Shown here piece by piece: positions 1 through 63,989 of a stretch of 64,000 nt of DNA. Origin of the DNA: Candidatus Rifleibacteriota bacterium (GTDB taxonomy: Bacteria; UBP17; UBA6191; JACPRK01); the NCBI GenBank assembly GCA_016213865.1, contig JACQZL010000423.1, positions 9,678 through 73,677 on the forward strand, written 5' to 3'. The translations under genes were made by a program, and so were the position numbers. Under the pieces are notes generated by a model. It saw nothing but the letters and a program-made list of their open reading frames with translations, was not told the DNA's origin and ran no database searches. Positions within the stretch are counted from its first letter, which is position 1; each line of letters starts with the position of its first letter.

Positions 1-79
1 CGTGACCCTTCGGCTCAGGCGGTTGCCCGTCCGATCTTGCCGTCGAGCCTTCCCGTGGCGATGCCGGCGAATCGGCGGT

Positions 80-1492
80 TCAACCGGCCCACGGAAGTGC
101 CTCGGTGGTCAGGTCCACGAAGAGCTCGTCGCCGGTCGAGCGAGGTCGGTCCGCGAATCCGCTTCGGGAGACGAGTGCGTGGGTCCGCGAACACTCCCGC
201 AAAGCGTCGCAAGCCGCGGCCCTGCGGGCCAGATCCTTCATGGTCCCAACGCCGCGAATCGGGGCTCGGCTCCACTTGATTTCAACGACCATCGCACGGG
301 TCCGGGAGTGGTCCAGCAGGACCCAGTCGAACTCCTCCAGGTTGGACCAGTGGCGCCCGGAGTAGGCTGACACGAAGGGCACCCGGCCGACCCAGTCGTG
401 CCGGAAGAGAGAGCCGATCACCGGCTCGACAGAGCCGGCGATGTACGCGTCGAGCGACGGGAGGACTTCATCCTCGAGGACCATCGCCGTGTCGCCGCAC
501 TCCAGGCGATCGCGGTTGGGGAACACGAATCTGTACCAGAAATCGACGAAGTGGTCCGCGATGCGGTAGAGCCCACGGCGGCTCTTCTCCGGATACCACT
601 CGGTGACGGGTACCTCGCGTGCGACCAGACCCAGTTCGCAAAGCGTGGCCAGATAACGTGTCAGATGGGCCCGTTCCAGCCCCGTCTTGCTCGATAGCTC
701 CGAGAACTTACGCGCTCCGCGGGCAATGGCCCCGAGTATCGACTGGTACACCCTGGGCGATCGCAGCTCGCTTCGAAGCAAAAAGGGCACTTCGTCGTAG
801 AGGAGCGAACCCCTCGCGAGAATGGAATCGCGGATGTTCTCGGCCAGGCCTTTCGAGGGTTCGAGTTGGGTCACGTACATCGGACTGCCTCCGACAACGC
901 AGTACAACGACAAGACGTCCTCGAAGGAACCCATGGGCCAGAGAAGCCCAATCTCTCGGACCCCGAACGGCTCGAGCTTCCACTGTCCCGTTCGGCGACC
1001 GTGCAGCGGACTGCGGGGAGAAAGCCCGATGTCCTCCATCATCGAGATACTCGAACCTGACAGCACGAGCTTGATGCGGGTCCGGCGGAGCCGAGCGTCC
1101 CAGCTCGCCTGCAGCCGAGACGGAAGGGACGGATCGCCTTCCACCGCGTAGGGGAACTCGTCCAGAAGAAGACCAAACGGCCTTTTCTCAGCCTGGTGAC
1201 CCAGGTAAGCCAGGCAAGCCTCCCAGCTCCCGAGAGACTGTACCGCCAGCACGGGGTCTTCAAAGAACTCCGCAAGTCGCCGGCTCAGGCGCGAAAGCTC
1301 ATCGACAGGCGTGGTTTGAACGCAGACATGATACAGGACCGGCACCTTCGACCGGTGCGCAAGATGCTGCAGGAGCCAGGTCTTGCCGACCCTGCGGCGT
1401 CCGTAGAGGACGAGCAGTTGCGCGCTGCTCTTGGCCAGCGACTGTTCGAGGAACTCGAGCTCAGCCACTCGGTTGACGAAGGTGTCTTTCAT
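80..1492 (-). CDS. ATP-binding protein, archaeal-ATPase/DUF234 type
   Basis: This 470-residue protein reads as a P-loop ATPase of the archaeal ATPase group (COG1672-like). Walker A is GRRRVGKT near residues 31-38 and Walker B is LLLDEFPY near residue 110. A winged-helix-like stretch follows at about 250-300 (FSELSSKTGLERAHLTRYL). The C-terminal third has the DUF234 pattern with a PD-(D/E)XK-like core, EFDWVLLD followed by VVEIKW. Such proteins are often linked to defence or mobile functions, but the substrate is unknown. The start is the ATG 11 nt downstream of the predicted transcription start, with no Shine-Dalgarno sequence. It stands alone; the next gene begins over 400 nt away. The family call is solid and the biological role is not known. 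Confidence 0.85.
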   Translation of the reverse strand: MKDTFVNRVAELEFLEQSLAKSSAQLLVLYGRRRVGKTWLLQHLAHRSKVPVLYHVCVQTTPVDELSRLSRRLAEFFEDPVLAVQSLGSWEACLAYLGHQAEKRPFGLLLDEFPYAVEGDPSLPSRLQASWDARLRRTRIKLVLSGSSISMMEDIGLSPRSPLHGRRTGQWKLEPFGVREIGLLWPMGSFEDVLSLYCVVGGSPMYVTQLEPSKGLAENIRDSILARGSLLYDEVPFLLRSELRSPRVYQSILGAIARGARKFSELSSKTGLERAHLTRYLATLCELGLVAREVPVTEWYPEKSRRGLYRIADHFVDFWYRFVFPNRDRLECGDTAMVLEDEVLPSLDAYIAGSVEPVIGSLFRHDWVGRVPFVSAYSGRHWSNLEEFDWVLLDHSRTRAMVVEIKWSRAPIRGVGTMKDLARRAAACDALRECSRTHALVSRSGFADRPRSTGDELFVDLTTEALPWAG

Positions 1493-1937
1493 ACCGAAGA
1501 TGCACTTGAATTATACTAATGCAGGTGCAGCCAAGCAAGCGTTGAAGGCTCGAGGGGGAGCATCCCGACAAGGTCGCGAGGTTGGAGTTGGGAGCCGGGA
1601 ACTCGACGCGCGGGCTCGGGGCCCCGACCGCACCCGAGCCTCCGGCCGGGCCGTCCGTTGTGACCGTGATCATGGACGACGGGGGTGAGGAGCCCCCCGG
1701 CGGGGGGAGCCAGGAGCGGATGACGGCGACGTCGAGTTCGAGGACCTGGCCGGCTCGACCCACGGCCGCCTCCAGCTCCTGGGGCCCACCGTCCGGACTC
1801 CGAAACCTCGAGGGTCCTGCAGGGCTCAGAGCCTGTGAATCTACTGGAGAGGCCGCCAGAGTAGGTCAGTGGGGCAGGCAAGATGCCTGCCCCACTTCAT
1901 CAGAACTCGGGAATCCAGTGATTTGAATTCGCACGCC
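1493..1937. repeat. intergenic region with a perfect 12-bp hairpin
   Basis: No convincing gene is seen in this 445-nt gap apart from the promoter at its left end. At 1869-1895 GTGGGGCAGGCA and its exact reverse complement flank a 3-nt loop. No T-tract follows on either strand, so it looks like a REP-type intergenic palindrome rather than an intrinsic terminator, although it lies about 43 nt beyond the stop of the lipoprotein gene. Confidence 0.5.
1510..1538 (-). promoter_or_regulatory. sigma-70-type promoter of the DUF234 ATPase gene
   Basis: On the minus strand TTGCTT (1538-1533) is followed after 17 nt by a perfect TATAAT (1515-1510). Transcription would start near 1503, leaving only about 11 nt before the ATG at 1492, so the message would be almost leaderless. 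Confidence 0.6.
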
Positions 1938-3026
1938 TCAGGCCCCCGGCGCCTGGCCGTGGGACCGGCAGCCGAGGCCCAGTCCATCGGACGTCAGGTG
2001 GTACTCCTCGACCGAGCTGTCGTAGGGCTTGCCGGGATCGCGAGGCAGCCGGGACAGGTAGCCGCAGTCGACCAGCATCTGCAGGAGAGGCAGGTCCAAC
2101 CGCTCGAGCTTGACGTTGTTTTCCCGGCAGTAGCGCTCGACGGCCCGGGAGATTTCCCGCTGCTGATCCCAGCACGCGTCGGCGTTCGAGCCGTGGATGC
2201 GGCAGGTGACACCCTCGTCGCCGAACCGGTAGTGGTTCGTGGAGCCCGCGCCCTGACCCGGGTCCTGAGAGAGGACCTCGAGTATCTGGGCATCGAAGAG
2301 GGTGAGGACCATCCAGTCCTGGCTGCTCTCCAGCTTCACGTTGTAGCGCTCGCAATAGTGCCTGGCGGTAGCTGCCAGGACCTCCTGATTGTGGAAGCAG
2401 GCCTCGTCGGCATCCAAATCGGCGTTGAACCCAGGCTGGCCCCAGCCGCCCTTGGGGGTGTTGTCCCGCGAGCCGTGGACGCTGCAGGAGACGCCCCGGT
2501 CGCCCGGATAGCTGTAGCGCGAGAGCGGTTCGGCGGTGCCACCGTTTCGATGGGCCAGCTCGCCCAGACAGCGGGCTTCACGCAACCGGGCGACCGTCTC
2601 GGGGGTGACGTTCTCGATCGCCTCGCCCGAGTGGGTCTGGTTGAAGCGAGCGATGGCCTCCTCGAGGCGGATCTGATTGTCAAAGCAGATGCTGCGATCG
2701 ATCTCGTCGCCCGGGTCCACGGCTTCCTCGCCGGTCGACACGGTCCCGTCGCTCTCGAGCCCAGGCAGCTCCTGGGCCTCGAGGCCGGCGCCTTCTTGCC
2801 CCGGAGCAGCGGGGAGCGCGCCCGCGTCGGAGACCGCGGAGCCGCCCAGGGCCGGGTCCACGATGGGGACATCGCCTTCATTGAAGGTCCCGTCCGAGTG
2901 AGGGGCTGAAGCCTGCTCCGAAGCGGCAGCCGGCGTCTGCTGCGACGAGCTCGTGCAACCCCCGGCGAACTGCATGCCCACGGCCAGGATCATCAGGACG
3001 GCGGTCATCATTGCGGTGCAGGACAT
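1938..3026 (-). CDS. lipoprotein with three pilin-head-like cysteine repeats
   Basis: This 362-residue exported protein has a hydrophobic signal ending in a lipobox-like AGGC at about residue 24, so it is probably lipid-anchored. After a Pro/Ala/Gly-rich linker (about 25-105) come three tandem units of about 75-85 residues. Each begins CF.NQ, CFHNQ or CWDQQ with an amphipathic helix (EAIARF, ATARHYC, RAVERYC) and ends with G..GV.C..HG or a close variant (VSCSVHG, VTCRIHG, LGCRSHG). The start pattern and terminal C..HG resemble the C-terminal heads of type IV prepilins and pseudopilins, but no prepilin N-terminus is present. It lies downstream of the acyl carrier protein gene on the same strand, separated by a terminator. 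Function unknown; the repeat call is direct and the pilin relation is inference. Confidence 0.8.
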   Translation of the reverse strand: MSCTAMMTAVLMILAVGMQFAGGCTSSSQQTPAAASEQASAPHSDGTFNEGDVPIVDPALGGSAVSDAGALPAAPGQEGAGLEAQELPGLESDGTVSTGEEAVDPGDEIDRSICFDNQIRLEEAIARFNQTHSGEAIENVTPETVARLREARCLGELAHRNGGTAEPLSRYSYPGDRGVSCSVHGSRDNTPKGGWGQPGFNADLDADEACFHNQEVLAATARHYCERYNVKLESSQDWMVLTLFDAQILEVLSQDPGQGAGSTNHYRFGDEGVTCRIHGSNADACWDQQREISRAVERYCRENNVKLERLDLPLLQMLVDCGYLSRLPRDPGKPYDSSVEEYHLTSDGLGLGCRSHGQAPGA

Positions 3027-3116
3027 GGGGCCTCCTCGGCGTCACTTCACGGACGGCCGAGAAGAAGCAAGGCTTGCGCCATGCCTGCAGATTCAAGCTC
3101 CGATGCGGCTCGTGGC

Positions 3117-3152
3117 AAAACCCGCCCTCGCGCAAGGCGTCAAGGGCGGGTT
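3117..3152 (-). terminator. intrinsic terminator after the acyl carrier protein gene
   Basis: On the minus strand AACCCGCCCT (3152-3143) pairs perfectly with AGGGCGGGTT (3128-3119), followed by a run of four T. It begins about 30 nt after the acyl carrier protein stop codon. Confidence 0.75.
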
Positions 3153-3182
3153 ACCACGTATCCGGCCGGTTACCCGGCGCCG

Positions 3183-3572
3183 TCACTGCACGGTCAGCTT
3201 GTGCTCGATGTACTTCACGAGCATCTCGACCGTGTAGAAGCGGGCTAGCTCCGAGACAGGCAGGTCGCTGCCGGCGCTGGAAACGTCGATGTACGGGTAG
3301 CGCGTCTTGAGGACCTGCATCCCGTCGCCCGTCAGCTTGCCGCCACTGACGTATTGCTTGTTGCTGAAGATCTCCTGCGGGAAGAGCTCGCCCTGCGGGA
3401 TCTTGACACCGAAGGCCTTCTCCATGCGAAAGATGATGTCGACGAAGTCGATCGACTCCGCTTCGAGATCACGGGTCAGCGACGTCTGAGGCTGCAGTCG
3501 GTCTTCGTCGGCGCCCAGCGCCTCTGCCAGACAGCCCTTGACTTTGGTATAGATCTCGTCGCGACTCATCAT
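3183..3572 (-). CDS. acyl carrier protein-like protein
   Basis: This 129-residue protein carries a phosphopantetheine attachment motif, DLEAESIDFVDIIFRMEK, with the modifiable Ser near residue 40. The preceding helix (DEIYTKVKGCLAEALG) and following GVKIP are typical of acyl carrier proteins. It is longer than AcpP (about 80 residues) because of an extra stretch after about residue 65 (KLTGDGMQVLKTRYPYIDVSS) before the last helix. The start is the first of two adjacent ATG codons, with AAGGAG nine nt upstream; longer readings lack a ribosome site. It stands alone between a promoter and a terminator, away from fatty-acid synthesis genes, so a specialised carrier for a lipid or secondary product is more likely than the housekeeping AcpP. 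Confidence 0.88.
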   Translation of the reverse strand: MMSRDEIYTKVKGCLAEALGADEDRLQPQTSLTRDLEAESIDFVDIIFRMEKAFGVKIPQGELFPQEIFSNKQYVSGGKLTGDGMQVLKTRYPYIDVSSAGSDLPVSELARFYTVEMLVKYIEHKLTVQ

Positions 3573-6734: not shown

Positions 6735-7994
6735 ATGATGGACCGGACCCCAGCAGAGCCCTCGCCCGTAACGGATCTCGATCTGCACGACTGGGCCCCT
6801 GCTCCCCGCAAGGCCCAGCCCGAGCGCATCGTGGCAGGCCTGCTCTTCGCCGGCCTGTTGCTCTTCGGCGTCGTGCGCGGCGTGCAGTCCGGCAGCGAGC
6901 TGATGGCTGCCGCAGATTTCTGGACCACCTTCGTGCCGGTCAATTGCACCATCGCCGAGTGCGAGGCGTATCTCGGTCATGCAACCGATCCCTCCAAGCG
7001 TGCCTTCAAGGTCAGGTACACCGTGGAGGACAACGGCCATCTCGTCTCGCGTCAGACCGTGCTCGAGCTGCCTCCCGACCACCCCTCGCTGGCAGCGAGC
7101 AGTCTTCCCTTCAGCGTCAACCAGATCGTCCGCGGCTGGACGGTACCCGGATGGCCGGACGCCTCGACCCTGGAGACGCCCCCCGAGTTTCGGCTCGCGG
7201 ACGGGTTGCTGGCGGTTGGGAGCCTGGCCCTGGGCATGCTCGGGTCATTCTGGTGGTTCCGAACCAGGACGGATGCAGGGCGCGTGCTCGATCCGCCCAA
7301 GGAGATGGCAGCCGGGGTCCTGCTCTTCGATGCGCGCGCATGCCTTCCTCCTTTGAAGGTCGAACCGGGACACAGACTGCCCCACCGCCTCCGGCCGGAG
7401 CCTCCGCCTCATCTCCAATGGCTCACCTGGCTGACTGCCACGGTGGCACTCGGGTTATCGGCGTCGCTGGCAGCGTACAGCGCGGCCCGAGCTTCGATCT
7501 GGAACATGCCCAGGGGCATGGCCTTCCTCTTCGCGGTCCTGGCCGCGGCCACGGGCGGGTTTTGCCTGGTCCAGACCGTTCGTCACTTCCAGGCCTGGCT
7601 GCGTTCGCGCGGCCTGGCTCTCGAGCTATCCTTCTGGCCCATCCGCACGGGTACGCCGGCGCGCTGCGCGTTCGTCACGGAGCGCAGGGTCTCTTGCAGC
7701 CAGGTGCAACTGAACCTGCTCAGGGAGGAATCCACCGGTCTGGGTGCGGACGGAGAGGCGGCTGAGCTGGTTTTCGAGCAAGTCCTGGCAACCGCGGAAC
7801 GCGTCGAGCTCGGCCATGAGAACCCCTGGGACGTCCCGGGCGAGTTCACCGTTCCTCGAGAGGCCCCACACTCTCTGACGGGGCAGAGCTGTTCGATCGA
7901 ATGGCGGCTCGAGCTGCACCTGGAGGTACCGGGCGGCGCTCGTCTGGTCCGCGTGTTTCCTCTCCTGGTGATCCCGCCGGAGGCCTTGCATTGA
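6735..7994 (+). CDS. membrane protein with DUF3592-like and arrestin-like domains
   Basis: This protein of about 419 residues has a first transmembrane segment at about 32-47 and an extracytoplasmic DUF3592-like domain (about 55-145, with CTIAECEAYL and F.V.Y.VEDNG). Further membrane segments follow at about 155-172, 235-255 and 267-285. The C-terminal soluble domain has a beta-sandwich pattern ending in FTVPREAPHSLTG..CSIEWRLELHLEVPGG, as in arrestin-like domains paired with DUF3592. The start is the ATG pair at 6735/6738, or the GTG six nt earlier, chosen because upstream codons lie in a dispersed repeat. It is translationally coupled to the next gene. Function unknown. Confidence 0.75.
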   Translation: MMDRTPAEPSPVTDLDLHDWAPAPRKAQPERIVAGLLFAGLLLFGVVRGVQSGSELMAAADFWTTFVPVNCTIAECEAYLGHATDPSKRAFKVRYTVEDNGHLVSRQTVLELPPDHPSLAASSLPFSVNQIVRGWTVPGWPDASTLETPPEFRLADGLLAVGSLALGMLGSFWWFRTRTDAGRVLDPPKEMAAGVLLFDARACLPPLKVEPGHRLPHRLRPEPPPHLQWLTWLTATVALGLSASLAAYSAARASIWNMPRGMAFLFAVLAAATGGFCLVQTVRHFQAWLRSRGLALELSFWPIRTGTPARCAFVTERRVSCSQVQLNLLREESTGLGADGEAAELVFEQVLATAERVELGHENPWDVPGEFTVPREAPHSLTGQSCSIEWRLELHLEVPGGARLVRVFPLLVIPPEALH

Positions 7995-57262: not shown

Positions 57263-59026
57263 TCAGTACCCCATCGGCACGCCGGCCTTGCGCGGATCGC
57301 TGCCACCCAGCAGCCATCCGTCTCGCACGGCCACGGCGGTCACCGAGGCGCGTTTGACGCCGGGCATGACGCGCAGGCCCCGGAGACGCAACGCGCGGAC
57401 TGTCAGGTCGGGGTAGGCCTCCTCGACCCAGATCTTTGACGAGCGGCCCGTGACCTGGAGCCGGGGAAGGGCGACGGCCCGCTCGGGGGACAACCCGTGG
57501 TCGAGCAGGCCGATGACGCACTGCGTGATCGCCGGCAGGATGCGGCCCGAGCCCGAACCGCCGATCGCCAGTTGCAGACGGCCCTCGCGGAAGACCAGCG
57601 TCGGGGCCGAGGCGGAGACCGGGGCCTTCAACGGTTCGACGACGTTGGCCCTGCCGTACGGGATGCCGTAGGCGTTGGGCCGTCCCGGCGCCGGGCTGAA
57701 GTCGGCCACGTGGTTGGAGAGGATGAGCCCCGCTCCCTCGACGCGGAGATGGCAACCGAAGGCAGCGCCCAGCGACGTCGTCATCGCCACCGCGTTCCCT
57801 TCTCGATCGACGATGCAGAGGTTGGTCGTGTCGGACGGCTCCGCGTCATCGCCCGCTGCCTGCTCGGGCGTCGGGGCAAACGCTGCCGGCCGCGTCAAAA
57901 ACCGCTCCAGCGGGATCTCCGAGAAGGCCGGGTCTCCGAGGTAGGCGGCCTTGGCCGCGGTCGCCGCCTGGAGCGCCCGGGCGACAGCCACCGCCTCCGT
58001 CGGGGAGCCCGGACCCAGCGAGGGCAGAGGCGTCGGCTCCAGGAGTCCCAGCGTCATGAGGAGCACGGCCCCCGAGGCGGGTGGGGGCATCGCGAAGACG
58101 TCGGCACCCCGGTACCGGCCGCGGAGCGGCTCCACCCAGTGGGGTTCGATGGCCTGGAGGTCCTGCAACGAGAGGACGCCGCCGTGCGACCTGACGGCCC
58201 GAACGATGGCGTCCGCGATTGGGCCCTGCGTCACGGCCCGCGGGCCGTCCCGGGCAACGGCCTCGAGGGTTTGGGCCAGATCGACCTGGCGAAGCCGATC
58301 GCCCTGACGCAGGCGGCGCCCGTCGGGGCGCGTCAGAAAGCGGTCCAGCTCGGGCGTCCGCTCCGAGCCGCGGAGGTAGTCCCGGGCCATGTTCGCCAGG
58401 AGACGGCCGGCCGGAAAGCCCTCACGGGCGAGCCGAAGGGCAGGCTCCAGCAGCCGCCGGCGCGGCAGCCTGCCGAAGCGTTGCCAGGCAGCTTCGAGCC
58501 CCTGGGCTTCGCAAGGGACCGCCGCCGCCAGGCCTCCGGTCCGCGCCGGTCTGCCGTCCAGCGCTGCCAGAGCACGTGGCGCCTCCCGCGGGGCCCGGTC
58601 GCGGAACTCCAGGGCCGAAACGCGGCCGCGGGCGGCGTCATGGATCAGCATGAAACCGCCGCCGCCCAACCCCGACGACTGCGGATTGACGACTCCGAGG
58701 ACGTAGGCGGCCGCCACCATCGCATCGACCGCGTGTCCGCCGTCGCGCAAGACCTCGACCGCCGCGGCCGACGCCAGTTCGTGATCCGTGGCGACCATGC
58801 CGTTCCGCGCACGCGCACCGGACGCCGCCGCCGGCTCGCTCCACGCGAGCCACAGGACGAGCAGCACGAGCAGCGGGCGGCCTCCGGGCTCCGTACGCGG
58901 CAGGCGCAGCGAGACCGCGAGCGCCGAGCCCCAGGCCGCGAGCCGCGGGACGGCCCTCTCCCTGCCCTCCGCCCCCGGGGGAGGGTAGGCGTGGGGGGCG
59001 GATCGGCTTGGCGGCGGAACGCTCAC
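57263..59026 (-). CDS. ggt: gamma-glutamyltransferase
   Basis: This 587-residue protein is a GGT of the Ntn-hydrolase fold. A membrane or signal segment (LLVLLVLWLAWSEPAAA) sits at about 50-67. The large-subunit start ARNGMVATDHELASAAAVEVL and the motif GLGGGGFMLIHD are followed by the autocleavage site with nucleophile Thr in DTTNLCIVDREGNAVAMTTS and the small-subunit GGSGSGRILPAITQ. It hydrolyses or transfers gamma-glutamyl groups in the periplasm. The listed GTG start seven nt after ctpA has no ribosome site and reads through a GC-rich repeat, so a start nearer the signal segment is possible. Confidence 0.9.
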   Translation of the reverse strand: MSVPPPSRSAPHAYPPPGAEGRERAVPRLAAWGSALAVSLRLPRTEPGGRPLLVLLVLWLAWSEPAAASGARARNGMVATDHELASAAAVEVLRDGGHAVDAMVAAAYVLGVVNPQSSGLGGGGFMLIHDAARGRVSALEFRDRAPREAPRALAALDGRPARTGGLAAAVPCEAQGLEAAWQRFGRLPRRRLLEPALRLAREGFPAGRLLANMARDYLRGSERTPELDRFLTRPDGRRLRQGDRLRQVDLAQTLEAVARDGPRAVTQGPIADAIVRAVRSHGGVLSLQDLQAIEPHWVEPLRGRYRGADVFAMPPPASGAVLLMTLGLLEPTPLPSLGPGSPTEAVAVARALQAATAAKAAYLGDPAFSEIPLERFLTRPAAFAPTPEQAAGDDAEPSDTTNLCIVDREGNAVAMTTSLGAAFGCHLRVEGAGLILSNHVADFSPAPGRPNAYGIPYGRANVVEPLKAPVSASAPTLVFREGRLQLAIGGSGSGRILPAITQCVIGLLDHGLSPERAVALPRLQVTGRSSKIWVEEAYPDLTVRALRLRGLRVMPGVKRASVTAVAVRDGWLLGGSDPRKAGVPMGY

Positions 59027-59033
59027 GTCGGGC

Positions 59034-60359
59034 TCAGCGGCCGGGCGTCGATTGACGCAGTTGCTGGACGAACACCTCGCTCGAGACCAGCACGTCGATC
59101 GCGCGCTGCAACTGCGTGTCGTACTTGCGCAGGAACTCGAAGTCGATCGGCGGCTTGGGCGGCTTGCCCGGCTGCGGAGGCGTGTCGTCGAGGAACTTGG
59201 TCCGCTCGTCGCGCAGCTTGCGGATCTCGTCTTCGTTCATCTGAGGCAGCGCCACTTCGATGTCCGGCTGCAGCCCCCGGTTGTGGATCAATGTCCCCGC
59301 CGGCGTGTAGTAGTAGGCCGTCGTCAGGGCCAGGGCCGAACCGTCCGAGAGGGGCAGCACCGTCTGGACGCTCCCCTTGCCGAAGCTCTTCGAGCCGATG
59401 AGGATGCCGCGCTTGTGGTCGCGAACGGCCCCGGCGGTGATCTCCGAGGCACTGGCGCTCCCTCCGTCGACCAGCACCACCAGCGGGAACGGCGGGTGGC
59501 TCGAACCGGTGGACGCATGACGCATCTCGTTGCCTCCGTTGTCCTTGACGCTGACCACCGTCGCTCCTCGCGTGACGAAGGCGCTCGAGACAGCGACGGC
59601 TGCCTCGAGGAGCCCTCCCGGGTTGTGACGCAGGTCCAGGATGAGCCCGCGCATGCCGTCCTTCTCGAAGGCCTCGAGGCGCTTCTCGACGTCGGCCCCC
59701 GAGGTGGCGATGAACTGCGACAGGTAGATGTAGCCCAGCTTGCCGTCCAGCATCCGCGAGCTGACCGAAGGGACCTTGATCTCCTCGCGCACGATGTCGA
59801 ACTCGAGCAGCTTCTTGTTCCCTTCGCGGTAGAGCGTCACGTGGACCTTGGTGCCGATCTTGCCCCGGAGGAGGTTGGCCACATCGCTCACGGTCTTGCC
59901 TTTCACGGGCTCGGTATCGACCTTGACGATCTCGTCGTTCGACTCGATCCCCGCGCGGAAGGCCGGCGTTCCGACCAGGGGCGAGATGACCAGAATGCGG
60001 TTCTCCTTCTGGCCGATGATCAACCCGAGGCCGCCGAAGGCGCCCTTGGTCTCGATCTGCATCTCTTTGAAGACGCTCGGGTCCATGAAGCGCGAATAGG
60101 GGTCGCCCAGCTTCACCAGCAGACCCTCGACCGCGCCGTAGATCAGCTTGTCTTCCTTGACCTTCTCCGGCTCGACGTACTGGCGCGTGACGTGGTCGAG
60201 GACTTCCTGGACCAGCGCCAGCTTTCCGAAGAGCGTCAGCCCGAGCTTGCCCGCGTAGACCTCGTTGCAGTTCCCGGCCAGGAAGAAGACGTTCAGTCCG
60301 ACCGACAGGGCGAACGCCGTGACGACGGTGGAGATGACGAGCTTGCGCGTGATTCTCAT
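59034..60359 (-). CDS. ctpA: carboxy-terminal processing protease (S41, active)
   Basis: This 441-residue protein has a signal anchor (about 8-30), a PDZ domain at about 95-175 (GLGLIIGQKENRILVISPLVG) and an S41 peptidase domain. Catalytic Ser is in GGSASASEI and Lys in KSFGKGSVQTVLPL. The C-terminal region after about 365 ends in FEFLRKYDTQLQRAIDVLVS. CtpA enzymes trim envelope proteins, including peptidoglycan hydrolases. It lies 50 nt after an inactive paralogue and seven nt before ggt, in the ftsX-envC run. Confidence 0.93.
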   Translation of the reverse strand: MRITRKLVISTVVTAFALSVGLNVFFLAGNCNEVYAGKLGLTLFGKLALVQEVLDHVTRQYVEPEKVKEDKLIYGAVEGLLVKLGDPYSRFMDPSVFKEMQIETKGAFGGLGLIIGQKENRILVISPLVGTPAFRAGIESNDEIVKVDTEPVKGKTVSDVANLLRGKIGTKVHVTLYREGNKKLLEFDIVREEIKVPSVSSRMLDGKLGYIYLSQFIATSGADVEKRLEAFEKDGMRGLILDLRHNPGGLLEAAVAVSSAFVTRGATVVSVKDNGGNEMRHASTGSSHPPFPLVVLVDGGSASASEITAGAVRDHKRGILIGSKSFGKGSVQTVLPLSDGSALALTTAYYYTPAGTLIHNRGLQPDIEVALPQMNEDEIRKLRDERTKFLDDTPPQPGKPPKPPIDFEFLRKYDTQLQRAIDVLVSSEVFVQQLRQSTPGR

Positions 60360-60409
60360 GACGGCCGCTCCTTGACGATGAAGGTCCCCGGCTCGCGAGT
60401 GGTCCTACC

Positions 60410-61831
60410 TTACTGGCGGCGCTGGCCGTACTCGTAAAAGATGCTGGCGCTGATGATGATGTTGATGGCGCGCACCAGCACGGTGTCGTGCTGCTTGACC
60501 AGCTTGTAATCCTCCAGGACGCCGTCGGTGCTCTTGACCTTCGGCTTGCCGTCGTGTCCGGCCGGTTCCTCTTCGTCCTCTTCGCTCTTCTCTTCCTCGG
60601 CCGTCTCGGAGGAGGGCGGGGTCGTGGCCGTGGTGGCCGTCGTCGAGGTCGTTCCGGGGGCGGCGGCGACCGAGGTCGTCTCCTTCGACTTGGCAGCCGC
60701 GGCCGGCTCGCCGCGGCAGAAGGCCGTGAACTCGCGACGGGACTTGACGGTCTGGTCGGGCGCGACGGCTTCGGGGGTCATCGCGATGTCCGGCTTGACG
60801 CCCTCGACCCACAGGTCCCGGCCCGACGGGCTCAGGTAGTGCGAGGTCACCAGCGTCATCTGATGGTCGGCGTCGAGGTCGAACGTCTGGCGGTCGAAGG
60901 CCAGGCCGGAGGTCTTCTCGCCGATGACGACGGCGCGCTTGTCGTCTTGGAGCGCGGCGGCCAGGATCTCGGCGGCGCCGGCCGTCCCGCCGTCGCAGAT
61001 GATGACCAGGGGCATCGTTGCCGGGCTGCCCGCCGGGGCCGAACGCATCTGCGGGGCGCCGTCGCGACCCTGGATCTGAACGACGGGCCGCTCGGAAACG
61101 AAGAGCGCCGCGGCGGCCAGGGCATCGTCCGGCGTGCCGCCGATGGTGCTGCGCAGGTCGAGGATGGCCCCGATCGGCTTCTGTTTGTTCACGTCTTCCA
61201 GTCGCGCCTTGAGGAGCTCGACGCCCTTCTTGTCGAGCTGAGTCACCTGGAGGTAGCTGACGTTGCGGCCCACCGCGCGGCCGGCCGCCGACAAGGGCAT
61301 GACCTCGCGCTTGACCGGCACGTCCAGGAACCGCCGGCCCGCCTTGCGATACGCCGTGAGGCGCACGCTGGTACCGGCGTCGCCCGAGAGCAACGTCTCG
61401 AGCTCGGCCAGCGACTTGCCCAGGACTACCTCGTCGCCCACCTTGACCAGGAGGTCGCCGGGAGCGAACTCCTTGTAGAAAGCGTCGCTGTGCGCCAGCA
61501 CGGCCGAGAGGACCGGCACGCCGTCGACCAGTTGCACCCGAACGCCCGGGGCCGGGGCGTCGGCGCGGGCCTTGCTGTCCTTCTTGGCGTAGGCATACGA
61601 GCTGCCGGTCGGGTCCAGCTTGGCGAGCACCCCGTTGATGGCCCCCAGCGAGACGTTGCCGGCGACCAGACCCGGCACCTGCGGGTAGTGCGCCTCGATC
61701 GCCTTGAAGGCGGCCGTGACCAGCGCATCCGGGCCAGCCAGCGAGAGCGTGGCATTGGCCGCGCGGGCAGGGCCCGCCAGCAAGGCCGCGACGAGAATCA
61801 GTGTGCAGAAGGTCCGAATACGCGGGGTCAT
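60410..61831 (-). CDS. S41-family homologue lacking catalytic Ser and Lys (pseudo-protease)
   Basis: This 473-residue protein has a signal peptide (TLILVAALLAGPARA). A PDZ-like domain with LVDGVPVLSAVLAHSDAF and APGDLLVKVGDEVVLG precedes an S41-type fold: ILDLRSTIGGTPDDALAAA, then VIICDGGTAGAAEILAAALQ and VIGEKTSGLAFDRQTF. Compared with its neighbour, GSASASE has become GTAGAAE (nucleophile Ser lost) and FGKGSVQ has become TSGLAFD (Lys lost). A Thr/Ser/Glu-rich linker (about 390-435) and a C-terminal DTVLVRAINIIIS region, like that of CtpA, end the protein. ATG with GGAGG five nt upstream; it overlaps the envC stop by four nt. It probably works as a scaffold or adaptor. Confidence 0.85.
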   Translation of the reverse strand: MTPRIRTFCTLILVAALLAGPARAANATLSLAGPDALVTAAFKAIEAHYPQVPGLVAGNVSLGAINGVLAKLDPTGSSYAYAKKDSKARADAPAPGVRVQLVDGVPVLSAVLAHSDAFYKEFAPGDLLVKVGDEVVLGKSLAELETLLSGDAGTSVRLTAYRKAGRRFLDVPVKREVMPLSAAGRAVGRNVSYLQVTQLDKKGVELLKARLEDVNKQKPIGAILDLRSTIGGTPDDALAAAALFVSERPVVQIQGRDGAPQMRSAPAGSPATMPLVIICDGGTAGAAEILAAALQDDKRAVVIGEKTSGLAFDRQTFDLDADHQMTLVTSHYLSPSGRDLWVEGVKPDIAMTPEAVAPDQTVKSRREFTAFCRGEPAAAAKSKETTSVAAAPGTTSTTATTATTPPSSETAEEEKSEEDEEEPAGHDGKPKVKSTDGVLEDYKLVKQHDTVLVRAINIIISASIFYEYGQRRQ

Positions 61832-63087
61832 CTGTTCCTCCCGTTCATCTGCCGGCCACCCTGCAACCACTTGAGGGGGTCCTGGTGGACGGCGTTTTGG
61901 CGGATCTCGAAGTGAAGAGTGGCATCGTGCCCGTTGCCATCCGTGCTGCCGACGGTCCCGAGGACCTGGCCCCGTGCCACTTCTTGGCCGACGGGCACCA
62001 GTATCTCATCCAGATTTCCGTAGATCGAGATAATCTTGTCCGGGTTCCCGCCGTGGTCCACGAAGACCACCTTGCCGAAGTTGGGCATGTCCCCCCGGTG
62101 CATCACCTTGCCGCCCCCCACTGCCCTGACTTGCTGGCGCCCACCGACCTGGATGTCGATGCCGGGGTTGAAGTAGAGGGAACCCGTTTCGCTGCGGGAT
62201 TGGCCATAGGTGCGGACGATCTGGATCTCCTGGCGCGTGTCGAGTGGCCAGCCGACGCGGCCGGGCGCGAGCGAACGCCGAGACGTGCCGGGCACCACGT
62301 AGTCCGGCGGCACCGTCACCGAAAGCGGCGTGACGGGCGCAGGTCGCGGTCGCTCGACCGAGTCGCGACTGACCTGCCGGATCTTGGTGTCGATGTAGTC
62401 GAGGGATGCCTGCAACTGTCTCGCGCGCTCCAGGGCCTTCTGCTTTTCTTTCGCCAGGGATTCGAGGATCTCTTGTCCGCGATCGATGGTGGCTGTCAGT
62501 TCGAGGCCCTTGGTCTCCTTCTGCTGGCGGGCCAGGTCCAGTTCCCGGCTGGCCGCCTCGACCGCGGCTTGCTTGGCCGCGAGCTCGCGGCGGGTGTTCT
62601 GCAGCTTCTCCAGCGCCAGGTAATCCTGCTGGAAGACGTACTGCAGGTACTTGTATCTTCGCGAGAACTCGGCGACGTCTTTCGAGTTGATCAGGAACGA
62701 GAGGAACGGGCGGTTCTTCAGCTTGTAGAACTGCGCCAGCCCCTTTGCGAAGCGATCGAGGTGCTCGGCGTGGGCCGTCTCGGCTTGCCTCAGCCCCAGG
62801 CGGATGCGGTTGAGGCTCTCCACCGCGCGGACGTTCTTCACGGAAACGCCGGCCAGCTCTTCTTGCAGGGCCTTGGCCGAGACGAGGTTCTCGTTCCGCT
62901 GCCGCTGGAGCTCTTCGTACTGGCTCGTGAGGTTGACGAGCCGCACCTTGACGGTCTCGAGCTGTTCGTTAACCTCGCGGCGGCGCTGGGCCTGGCCGGA
63001 AGGCTGGGCGGGTGCCACCGCGGCCCACGTCAGGGCCAGGGCCCCCAGGACCCACCCCGTTCGACGCCACCGAAGCTGGAAAGACAC
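61828..63087 (-). CDS. envC: EnvC-like murein hydrolase activator (M23 domain)
   Basis: This 419-residue protein has a signal peptide (GWVLGALALTWAAVAPAQP) and a long coiled coil at about 25-235. A LytM/M23 domain at about 290-410 follows: FNPGIDIQVGGRQQVRAVGGGKV, then YGNLDEILVPVGQEVARGQVLG and LHFEIRQNAVHQDPLKWL. In M23 enzymes zinc is held by H..D and H.H. Here the first site reads GIDI and the late site LHFEI has one His, so it looks catalytically degenerate, like EnvC, which activates amidases. GTG at 63087 has GAGG eight nt upstream. It lies 23 nt after ftsX, its known membrane partner. Confidence 0.9.
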   Translation of the reverse strand: MSFQLRWRRTGWVLGALALTWAAVAPAQPSGQAQRRREVNEQLETVKVRLVNLTSQYEELQRQRNENLVSAKALQEELAGVSVKNVRAVESLNRIRLGLRQAETAHAEHLDRFAKGLAQFYKLKNRPFLSFLINSKDVAEFSRRYKYLQYVFQQDYLALEKLQNTRRELAAKQAAVEAASRELDLARQQKETKGLELTATIDRGQEILESLAKEKQKALERARQLQASLDYIDTKIRQVSRDSVERPRPAPVTPLSVTVPPDYVVPGTSRRSLAPGRVGWPLDTRQEIQIVRTYGQSRSETGSLYFNPGIDIQVGGRQQVRAVGGGKVMHRGDMPNFGKVVFVDHGGNPDKIISIYGNLDEILVPVGQEVARGQVLGTVGSTDGNGHDATLHFEIRQNAVHQDPLKWLQGGRQMNGRNR

Positions 63088-63110
63088 CGGCACGACCTCG
63101 TCCGCGGGCC

Positions 63111-63989
63111 CTAGACCGCGATGCGCCGAAGGCTGATCAGACTGCCCAGGACCCCCAGGAGCACCCCCATCGTCATCAGTTGCCAGGCCAGGCGGAAAAG
63201 CTCGGCCGAACTGGCGACCAGCTTGAGGAAGGGTGCGATCGACTGCAGTCGCGCCACGAGGACGGGATACCCCACGAGCAGGATCGTCAGCGCGATGAGG
63301 GCACCGAAGAAGCCCTGCAGGAACCCCTCGATCAGGAAGGGCGTCCGGATGAACCAGTTGGTCGCTCCGACCAGCTTCATGATGCTGATCTCGGTCCGGC
63401 GGGCGTAGACAGTCAGCTTGATCGTGTTGGCGATGATCATGAGCGAGGCTGTTCCGAGGACCAGCACCAGGATCAGTCCGACCGAACGCGCCAGGTCGAC
63501 CAGCTTGAGCAGGGCGCCCACCTCTCGTTCGCCCACGCTCAGGTCGGCGACCCCGGGCCACTGGCGCGCGCGCGCGACGAAGGCGTCGAAGTCGATGCCG
63601 TCCTGCAGTCTCAGGTCGAACGACTCGGGAAGCGGGTTCTCCCGGAGCTCGAAGTCCGACCAGCCCATCCACTCCTTGACCGACGCGAGGGCCTTCGCGC
63701 GGCTGATGAACTCGTAGTTGACGATGGACGCATCGCTCTCGAACTTGCGGGTCAGCTCCCGCTTCTGGACGTCGGTCAGGTCCTGCTTGATGTAGACCGT
63801 GAGCTGGAGCTGCGAGCGAAGGGCCTTCAGGTTCTCGTTCATGTTGCGCATGAAGAGAAGGAAGGAGCCCAGGATGAAGAGCGTGATCACCACGGTCGAC
63901 AGCGTCGCCAGGTTCATCACGAAGGCCTGGCGGAAGCCGTCGAAGGCCTCGCGGAAGTGGAAGGTCAAGCCCCGGAGGCTATCGCGCAA
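63111..63989 (-). CDS. ftsX: cell division protein FtsX
   Basis: This 292-residue protein has four membrane segments (about 25-47, 173-194, 222-245 and 264-285) with an extracytoplasmic loop after the first (about 50-165), as in FtsX. Family motifs are VYIKQDLTDVQKREL, TEISIMKLVGATNWFIRTPF and EGFLQGFFGALIAL. With FtsE it forms an ABC-type complex that controls septal peptidoglycan hydrolysis through EnvC. TTG is used as start, with GAGGAGG four nt upstream, but the window ends 11 nt further on, so the true start and ftsE may lie outside. Confidence 0.93.
   Translation of the reverse strand: MRDSLRGLTFHFREAFDGFRQAFVMNLATLSTVVITLFILGSFLLFMRNMNENLKALRSQLQLTVYIKQDLTDVQKRELTRKFESDASIVNYEFISRAKALASVKEWMGWSDFELRENPLPESFDLRLQDGIDFDAFVARARQWPGVADLSVGEREVGALLKLVDLARSVGLILVLVLGTASLMIIANTIKLTVYARRTEISIMKLVGATNWFIRTPFLIEGFLQGFFGALIALTILLVGYPVLVARLQSIAPFLKLVASSAELFRLAWQLMTMGVLLGVLGSLISLRRIAV

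Follow-up and report, generated by a model that had tools for sequence, protein, structure and literature searches.

A catalytically dead S41 paralogue kept beside CtpA in an ftsX-envC locus: a tentative candidate for a dedicated resting subunit

CtpA proteases control cell-wall hydrolases. In the LbcA-CtpA complex of Pseudomonas aeruginosa and in Helicobacter pylori CtpA (HpCtpA) the enzyme is reported to be a hexamer, built as a trimer of dimers, with no more than one active protomer in any N-terminal dimer (N-dimer). The protomer at rest contributes dimer contacts and shuts one face with its PDZ domain, and the active protomer is touched by a loop that comes from a neighbouring dimer (PMC11021448, PMC12749690). 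In P. aeruginosa the protease is encoded in an envC-ctpA-PA5135 operon and, together with LbcA, is reported to degrade cell-wall endopeptidases (PMC12569750). Here an ftsX-envC-ctpA locus of a Candidatus Rifleibacteriota bacterium is described in which the ctpA gene adjoins a gene for an S41 paralogue that has lost its catalytic residues (the dead paralogue, or pseudo-CtpA). The locus lies in a stretch of 64,000 nucleotides (nt) of contig JACQZL010000423.1 (assembly GCA_016213865.1), referred to below as the window.

A conserved pseudoprotease beside an intact CtpA

An earlier note, made from the letters of this DNA alone, had described an active and an inactive S41 protease in tandem. Open reading frames and translations confirmed both genes on the minus strand where that note had placed them. 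The features that define the pair are as follows.

60410..61831, minus strand: dead S41 paralogue (pseudo-CtpA), 473 residues from its ATG; open reading frame with translation, Pfam S41 match, N-terminal signal sequence (judged by eye, no predictor)
59034..60359, minus strand: ctpA, intact S41 protease of 441 residues, 50 nt 3' of the dead gene; Pfam S41 and TIGR00225 matches, Ser and Lys present
60977..60979, minus strand: Gly285 of the dead paralogue, replacing the nucleophile Ser
60902..60904, minus strand: Leu310 of the dead paralogue, replacing the general base Lys
59451..59453, minus strand: catalytic Ser303 of CtpA, by profile alignment
59376..59378, minus strand: catalytic Lys328 of CtpA, by profile alignment

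Both proteins score above the Pfam S41 cut-off of 24 (107.5 bits for the dead paralogue, 179.4 for CtpA), and the dead paralogue has the S41 fold with a PDZ domain. The NCBIfam model TIGR00225 for C-terminal processing proteases (CTPs; cut-off 218.6) is passed by CtpA with 336.3 bits and missed by the dead paralogue with 151.1. In a profile alignment Ser303, Lys328 and Gln332 of CtpA correspond to Gly285, Leu310 and an Arg in the dead paralogue, which bears out the claim that the former keeps Ser and Lys and the latter has neither.

The same loss is seen throughout the orthologues. Seven aligned sequences (rows) are available, namely those of the window, P0002, P0004, P0005, L001, L002 and L084 (genome G032), which amount to about five lineages because L001 and L002, and likewise P0002 and P0005, are close in the tree. 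P0003 is on a contig as long as that of L002, and P0064 on one of 3,225 bases, as is L084. In all seven rows the Ser is replaced by Gly and the Lys by Leu, Gln or Gly; orthologues with an intact Ser or Lys were looked for, and none of the seven rows has either. The active rows of the phylum (43, with L086 left out; one row lacks most sites and two fragments lack the Ser segment) show Ser in 41 of 41 and Lys in 42 of 42 where these places are aligned. The omitted L086 (G032:C490, positions 2-3376) is a 1125-residue open frame; its S41 domain retains the Lys but shows Gly where the Ser would be (GSMGVAE).

Identity of the orthologues to the dead protein is 53-57%, plus one at about 32%. L001 and L002 come from groundwater metagenome-assembled genomes (MAGs) labelled Candidatus Wallbacteria, and the most distant orthologue (P0064) is labelled Candidatus Riflebacteria. 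No further orthologue was found in a 5.77-billion-protein collection among the best 7,990-7,994 candidates scored per search, and a genome-contig scan with a single dead protein as query gave no match. Between L001 and L002, a single close pair, the ratio of non-synonymous to synonymous divergence (dN/dS, NG86) is 0.0067/0.0857 (about 0.08) for the dead gene, 0.0030/0.0643 for ctpA, 0.0100/0.1455 for envC and 0.0033/0.158 for ftsX; in this pair the dead gene is constrained about as much as envC, and less than ctpA and ftsX. Recent decay or a frameshift is ruled out, because all seven rows, at 53-57% and about 32% identity, share the loss of both residues and dN/dS is low in the close pair. An assembly error is unlikely, since L001 and L002 stem from two differently named groundwater samples and show this gene order too. 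The earlier note's conserved pseudoprotease adjoining an active protease is therefore real, and, as judged from these sequences, the dead paralogue is a pseudoenzyme kept by purifying selection. In the window, L001 and L002 its gene is flanked by envC and ctpA, and in all four loci with flanking sequence it adjoins ctpA.

Substrate sensing, dimerisation elements and predicted conformation

The regions of the two proteins that bear on substrate sensing and assembly are listed here.

61298..61549, minus strand: PDZ domain of the dead paralogue, residues 95-178, with the GLG carboxylate loop largely lost
61385-61387, minus strand: codon of Ser149 of the dead paralogue, which replaces the sensor Arg
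61616..61732, minus strand: helices at the N-terminal dimerisation place of the dead paralogue, residues 34-72 (AlphaFold2)
60488..60766, minus strand: long linker of the dead paralogue, residues 356-448, at the place of the trans-interacting (motile) loop of CtpA, by homology with the proteins of PMC11021448 and PMC12749690
60422..60487, minus strand: C-terminal dimerisation helix of the dead paralogue, residues 449-470, from conservation and the model
59058..59123, minus strand: C-terminal helix of CtpA, residues 413-434 (helix 415-436 in the model)

The loss extends from catalysis to the sensing of substrate. At the place of HpCtpA Arg162 (Arg168 of Bacillus subtilis CtpB) the dead rows have Ser, Ala or Glu in 7/7, and the 42 aligned active rows of the phylum have Arg (38) or Lys (4). 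The Phe105 place is occupied by another residue in six of the seven dead rows, L084 aligning a Phe within a gappy stretch; the 42 active rows have Phe (40) or Tyr (2). Moreover, no dead row has the Leu or the first Gly of the GLG carboxylate loop. HpCtpA variants R162A and R162E are reported to have lost activity, and every protomer is described as resting in the crystal of the F105R variant (PMC12749690). The regulatory pair suggested by the earlier note stays plausible as such, but its proposal that the dead protein binds substrate and presents it to CtpA finds no support as far as the protein's own PDZ site is concerned, because the sensor Arg and most of the carboxylate loop are lost.

Elements used for assembly appear to be retained, less clearly at the N-terminus than at the C-terminus. 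In the AlphaFold2 model the N-terminal helices of the dead paralogue span residues 34-48 and 57-72, with predicted local confidence (pLDDT) mostly 57-72, and align to H. pylori CtpA from residue 45 and to P. aeruginosa CtpA from residues 38-39; a Pfam scan gave no CtpB_N-like match in the dead protein. The C-terminal helix (450-472 in the model) follows the long loop and aligns to the chain ends of the H. pylori (447) and P. aeruginosa (436) proteins, and the match of the window's CtpA to H. pylori CtpA extends to residue 434. In both of these described enzymes the C-terminal helix is reported to help join dimers into the hexamer (PMC8764530, PMC12749690).

Among five dead proteins (P0005 left out) the 22-residue window of the C-terminal helix ranks 20th of 452 in conservation. 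The window 444-465, which overlaps this helix, is the second-best separate conserved block after that of the former active site, where the best-conserved window of all, GAAEILAAALQDDKRAVVIGEK, is found. The corresponding helix ranks 218th of 435 in three CtpAs of the same genomes, and 364th of 450 (four rows, including the second CtpA of G032) and 329th of 485 (five rows) in CtpAs without a dead neighbour. Between the window and L084, identity of the dead protein is 13/20 in the C-terminal helix and 55/177 in the cap and core, compared with 12/22 and 107/178 for CtpA. The C-terminal helix that the earlier note saw in both proteins is indeed present, but it is not special to the pair and was rejected as proof of pairing, as most CtpAs of the phylum among the matches listed end in a similar helix. 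The special feature is the high conservation of this helix within the dead family.

The linker has low pLDDT at residues 382-419. In six aligned proteins the region (60488-60766) is rich in Thr and Ser and then in Asp and Glu, its middle being poorly conserved in letters. The idea that an ancestral long loop was split between the two copies was discarded, L104 and the second CtpA of G032 (L085) also being short-looped. The helix that follows the protease core of the dead protein ends in Cys372 (60716-60718), a residue present in all six dead proteins aligned; it could conceivably form a disulfide between dead subunits. The only Cys noticed in the window's CtpA is residue 31, near the N-terminus.

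Template-free AlphaFold2 predictions place the dead protein in the resting conformation of CtpA/CtpB and its partner CtpA in the active conformation; these models are of this pair, without other CtpAs for control. Helices at both dimerisation places, a predicted resting fold and the absence of cutting are what a dedicated resting subunit would be expected to show. It is therefore tentatively suggested that CtpA here is a hetero-oligomer in which the dead paralogue serves as a dedicated subunit that always rests, co-assembly being proposed from gene order, fold and conservation. Two observations weaken the proposal. In the title of PDB entry 4c2f the R168A mutant of CtpB is said to be present in an active conformation, so loss of the Arg alone need not lock the resting state, and deletion of the loop in P. 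aeruginosa is reported to give no significant drop in activity (PMC11021448). On account of both, our probability for the resting subunit was lowered from 0.45 to about 0.42.

By this proposal ctpA would have been duplicated, and one copy would have lost catalysis and substrate sensing and kept the dimerisation helices and the long loop. The dead copy would stand in for the resting protomer next to an active CtpA. If N- and C-contacts alternate around the ring, each of them would then join a dead chain to an active one. The pair may degrade cell-wall enzymes or activators near FtsX and EnvC, as CtpA does elsewhere. Its stoichiometry, its substrates and any role in division are what we infer; from the position of the genes a division role is plausible. 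A stricter form, in which a half-active CtpA homohexamer has been split into two genes to give an alternating 3+3 ring with an irreversibly dead resting half, made together with FtsX-EnvC, is doubtful. If it were true, the asymmetry that other CtpAs reach only by switching would be fixed in the genome.

Gene neighbourhood, origin and alternative readings

The remaining features of the locus are these.

63111..63989, minus strand: FtsX, with matches to Pfam FtsX_ECD and FtsX and to the NCBIfam FtsX model; its 5' end is at the window edge or outside it
61828..63096, minus strand: EnvC-like protein with a degenerate LytM/M23 domain (Pfam M23, 77.5 bits); start inferred
61828..61831, minus strand: ATGA in which the envC stop overlaps the start of the dead gene, behind GGGAGGAAC
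57263-59026, minus strand: gamma-glutamyltransferase gene, next after ctpA

The translational coupling of envC to the dead gene claimed in the earlier note fits the ATGA overlap in the window; in L001 and L002 a gap of 13 nt takes the place of this overlap. In the EnvC-like protein the His of HxxxD and the first His of HxH, which we take to be the LytM motifs, are missing from 30/30 aligned rows of the phylum, and the Asp and the last His are often kept. To judge from these residues the protein looks like an activator rather than an enzyme, as expected of EnvC. It scores 48.2 bits with the NCBIfam EnvC model NF008644, below the cut-off of 270, and the name EnvC-like thus rests on domain and position. 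The matches listed in the open literature hold no account of division in this phylum.

Of 39 genomes of the phylum searched, 36 gave matches, and strong matches to the dead family were confined to G001, G002 and G032. Of the 40 loci L084-L123, 24, each from a different genome, have ctpA immediately after ftsX and envC with no dead gene (one of these, L123, ends before the active site). The dead gene is thus present in three of the 39 genomes, and the ftsX-envC-ctpA order without it in 24 of the other 36. This order is therefore independent of the dead gene, a conclusion that the envC-ctpA operon of Pseudomonas extends to the neighbourhood as a whole. S41 genes number three in G001 and two in G002, and others could be missed where a MAG is incomplete.

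In the full tree, from which L086 (1125 residues, Ser to Gly, Lys kept) and proteins of at most 350 residues were left out, the dead clade has support of 100/100 on a stem of 3.26 and lies outside the active rows of the phylum, weakly joined (85/34) to a cyanobacterial row; the program flags this as long branches meeting. With a reduced set (quick tree, dropping all but three out-group rows as well as act_L119, act_L120, act_L107 and act_L110_15502), a grouping of the dead clade with its four CtpA partners was not rejected (p-AU 0.569), and neither was one that left the active rows undivided (p-AU 0.43). The reduced set would be compatible both with a duplication within this lineage and with an older origin.

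Elsewhere, tandem S41 pairs in which both copies have Ser and Lys occur in L014, L020, L021 and L022 (labelled Rhizomicrobium, Proteobacteria, Alphaproteobacteria), and represent tandem duplication without death of either copy. Six Acidobacteria loci (L027, L028, L029, L033, L035 and L041) encode S41 proteins in which the Lys is replaced by Asp or Glu (6/6) and the Ser by Asp, Gly or Asn (5/6; L035 keeps Ser); loss of activity alone is thus not rare among S41 proteins. No second S41 gene was found in these fetched loci. Two neighbours in L041 are a MacB/FtsX-like permease and a CrtC lipocalin.

Several other roles for the dead protein were weighed. It might be an adaptor that takes up EnvC or another substrate and delivers it to CtpA, in the manner of LbcA and NlpI with their own proteases; adaptors are reported as a known means of running CTPs (PMC11021448). 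The position of its gene between envC and ctpA in three loci, and a long acidic, Thr-rich linker that could bind clients, would suit this role; the residues that sense a substrate C-terminus are lost, however (the sensor Arg in 7/7, the GLG loop changed), and the gene order persists without the dead gene in 24 of 40 loci. Nothing was found pointing to EnvC as the ligand proposed in the earlier note, nor any EnvC-specific feature in the dead protein, and an adaptor is unlikely. An oligomer of the dead protein alone, acting as a periplasmic binding protein or scaffold without contact to CtpA, would also account for a C-terminal helix conserved within the dead family. Moreover, non-cutting S41-fold proteins exist, such as IRBP among the matches listed, which we take to be ligand-binding, and the Acidobacteria proteins have lost residues with no second S41 gene found in the locus. 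Such independence is likewise unlikely, given that the dead gene adjoins ctpA in 4/4 flanked loci although the two proteins share only about 27% identity.

Co-assembly could instead make the dead protein a dominant-negative brake, the ratio of the two proteins setting activity. Lost activation residues and a predicted resting fold agree with this, and the 50-nt gap before ctpA would permit separate translation; but a resting partner is reported as normal in the dimers of the CtpA hexamer and does not stop the other protomer (PMC12749690), which makes a brake decidedly improbable. Finally, the strong conservation around the former active site (the best window of all) might speak for a hydrolase with replaced catalytic residues. 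Gly cannot serve as nucleophile, the Lys has become Leu, Gln or Gly, and Cys372, the one Cys common to all six aligned proteins, lies after the core. The AlphaFold2 model has an ordinary S41/CtpA fold, and no systematic search for another catalytic centre was made; a surviving hydrolase can hardly be entertained.

Comparison with known systems

The resting-subunit proposal is best set against P. aeruginosa CtpA (S41A, LbcA-CtpA; PDB 7rpq, 8sxe-8sxh), which is the best PDB sequence match of both the dead profile (E 1.2e-47) and the window's CtpA (1.3e-81). The layout of N-dimer, PDZ, core, loop and C-terminal helix is described as alike (PMC8764530), and ctpA is reported to follow envC there too (PMC12569750). 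In P. aeruginosa one gene provides all six subunits and asymmetry comes with LbcA binding, whereas the present locus has a further gene whose product resembles a subunit but lacks Ser, Lys and sensor Arg. In H. pylori CtpA (PDB 9jr1, 9ku0, 9ku3, 9ksp, 9kub, 9kuc) the active and resting subunits are the same protein, unlike here. To our knowledge B. subtilis CtpB has no dead paralogue. That enzyme (PDB 4c2c-4c2h) is a dimer of which both subunits can be active, with another mode of C-terminal dimerisation according to PMC12749690.

Catalytically dead subunits occur in proteases other than the CLPPR protease of chloroplasts. The CspC:CspA pair of C. difficile is subtilisin-like, and so differs from the present pair in protease fold; it also differs in its role, spore germination. 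CspC:CspA are reported as bacterial pseudoproteases that pair (PMC12880746). The ClpR subunits of CLPPR are non-catalytic paralogues reported to co-assemble with catalytic subunits in a compartmental protease (PMC6508832), of unrelated fold and part of an ATP-dependent chloroplast enzyme. Among the matches listed in the open literature, no S41 CTP with a catalytically dead subunit is described. We know of no earlier S41 protease with a built-in pseudo-subunit.

Overall, what is new here is a dead S41 protein kept next to its active partner in an EnvC operon. If the resting-subunit proposal is correct, a lineage that carries the idle half of CtpA as a separate dead gene would offer a natural test of the one-active-per-dimer model drawn from the P. 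aeruginosa and H. pylori enzymes, because each half could be altered without the other.
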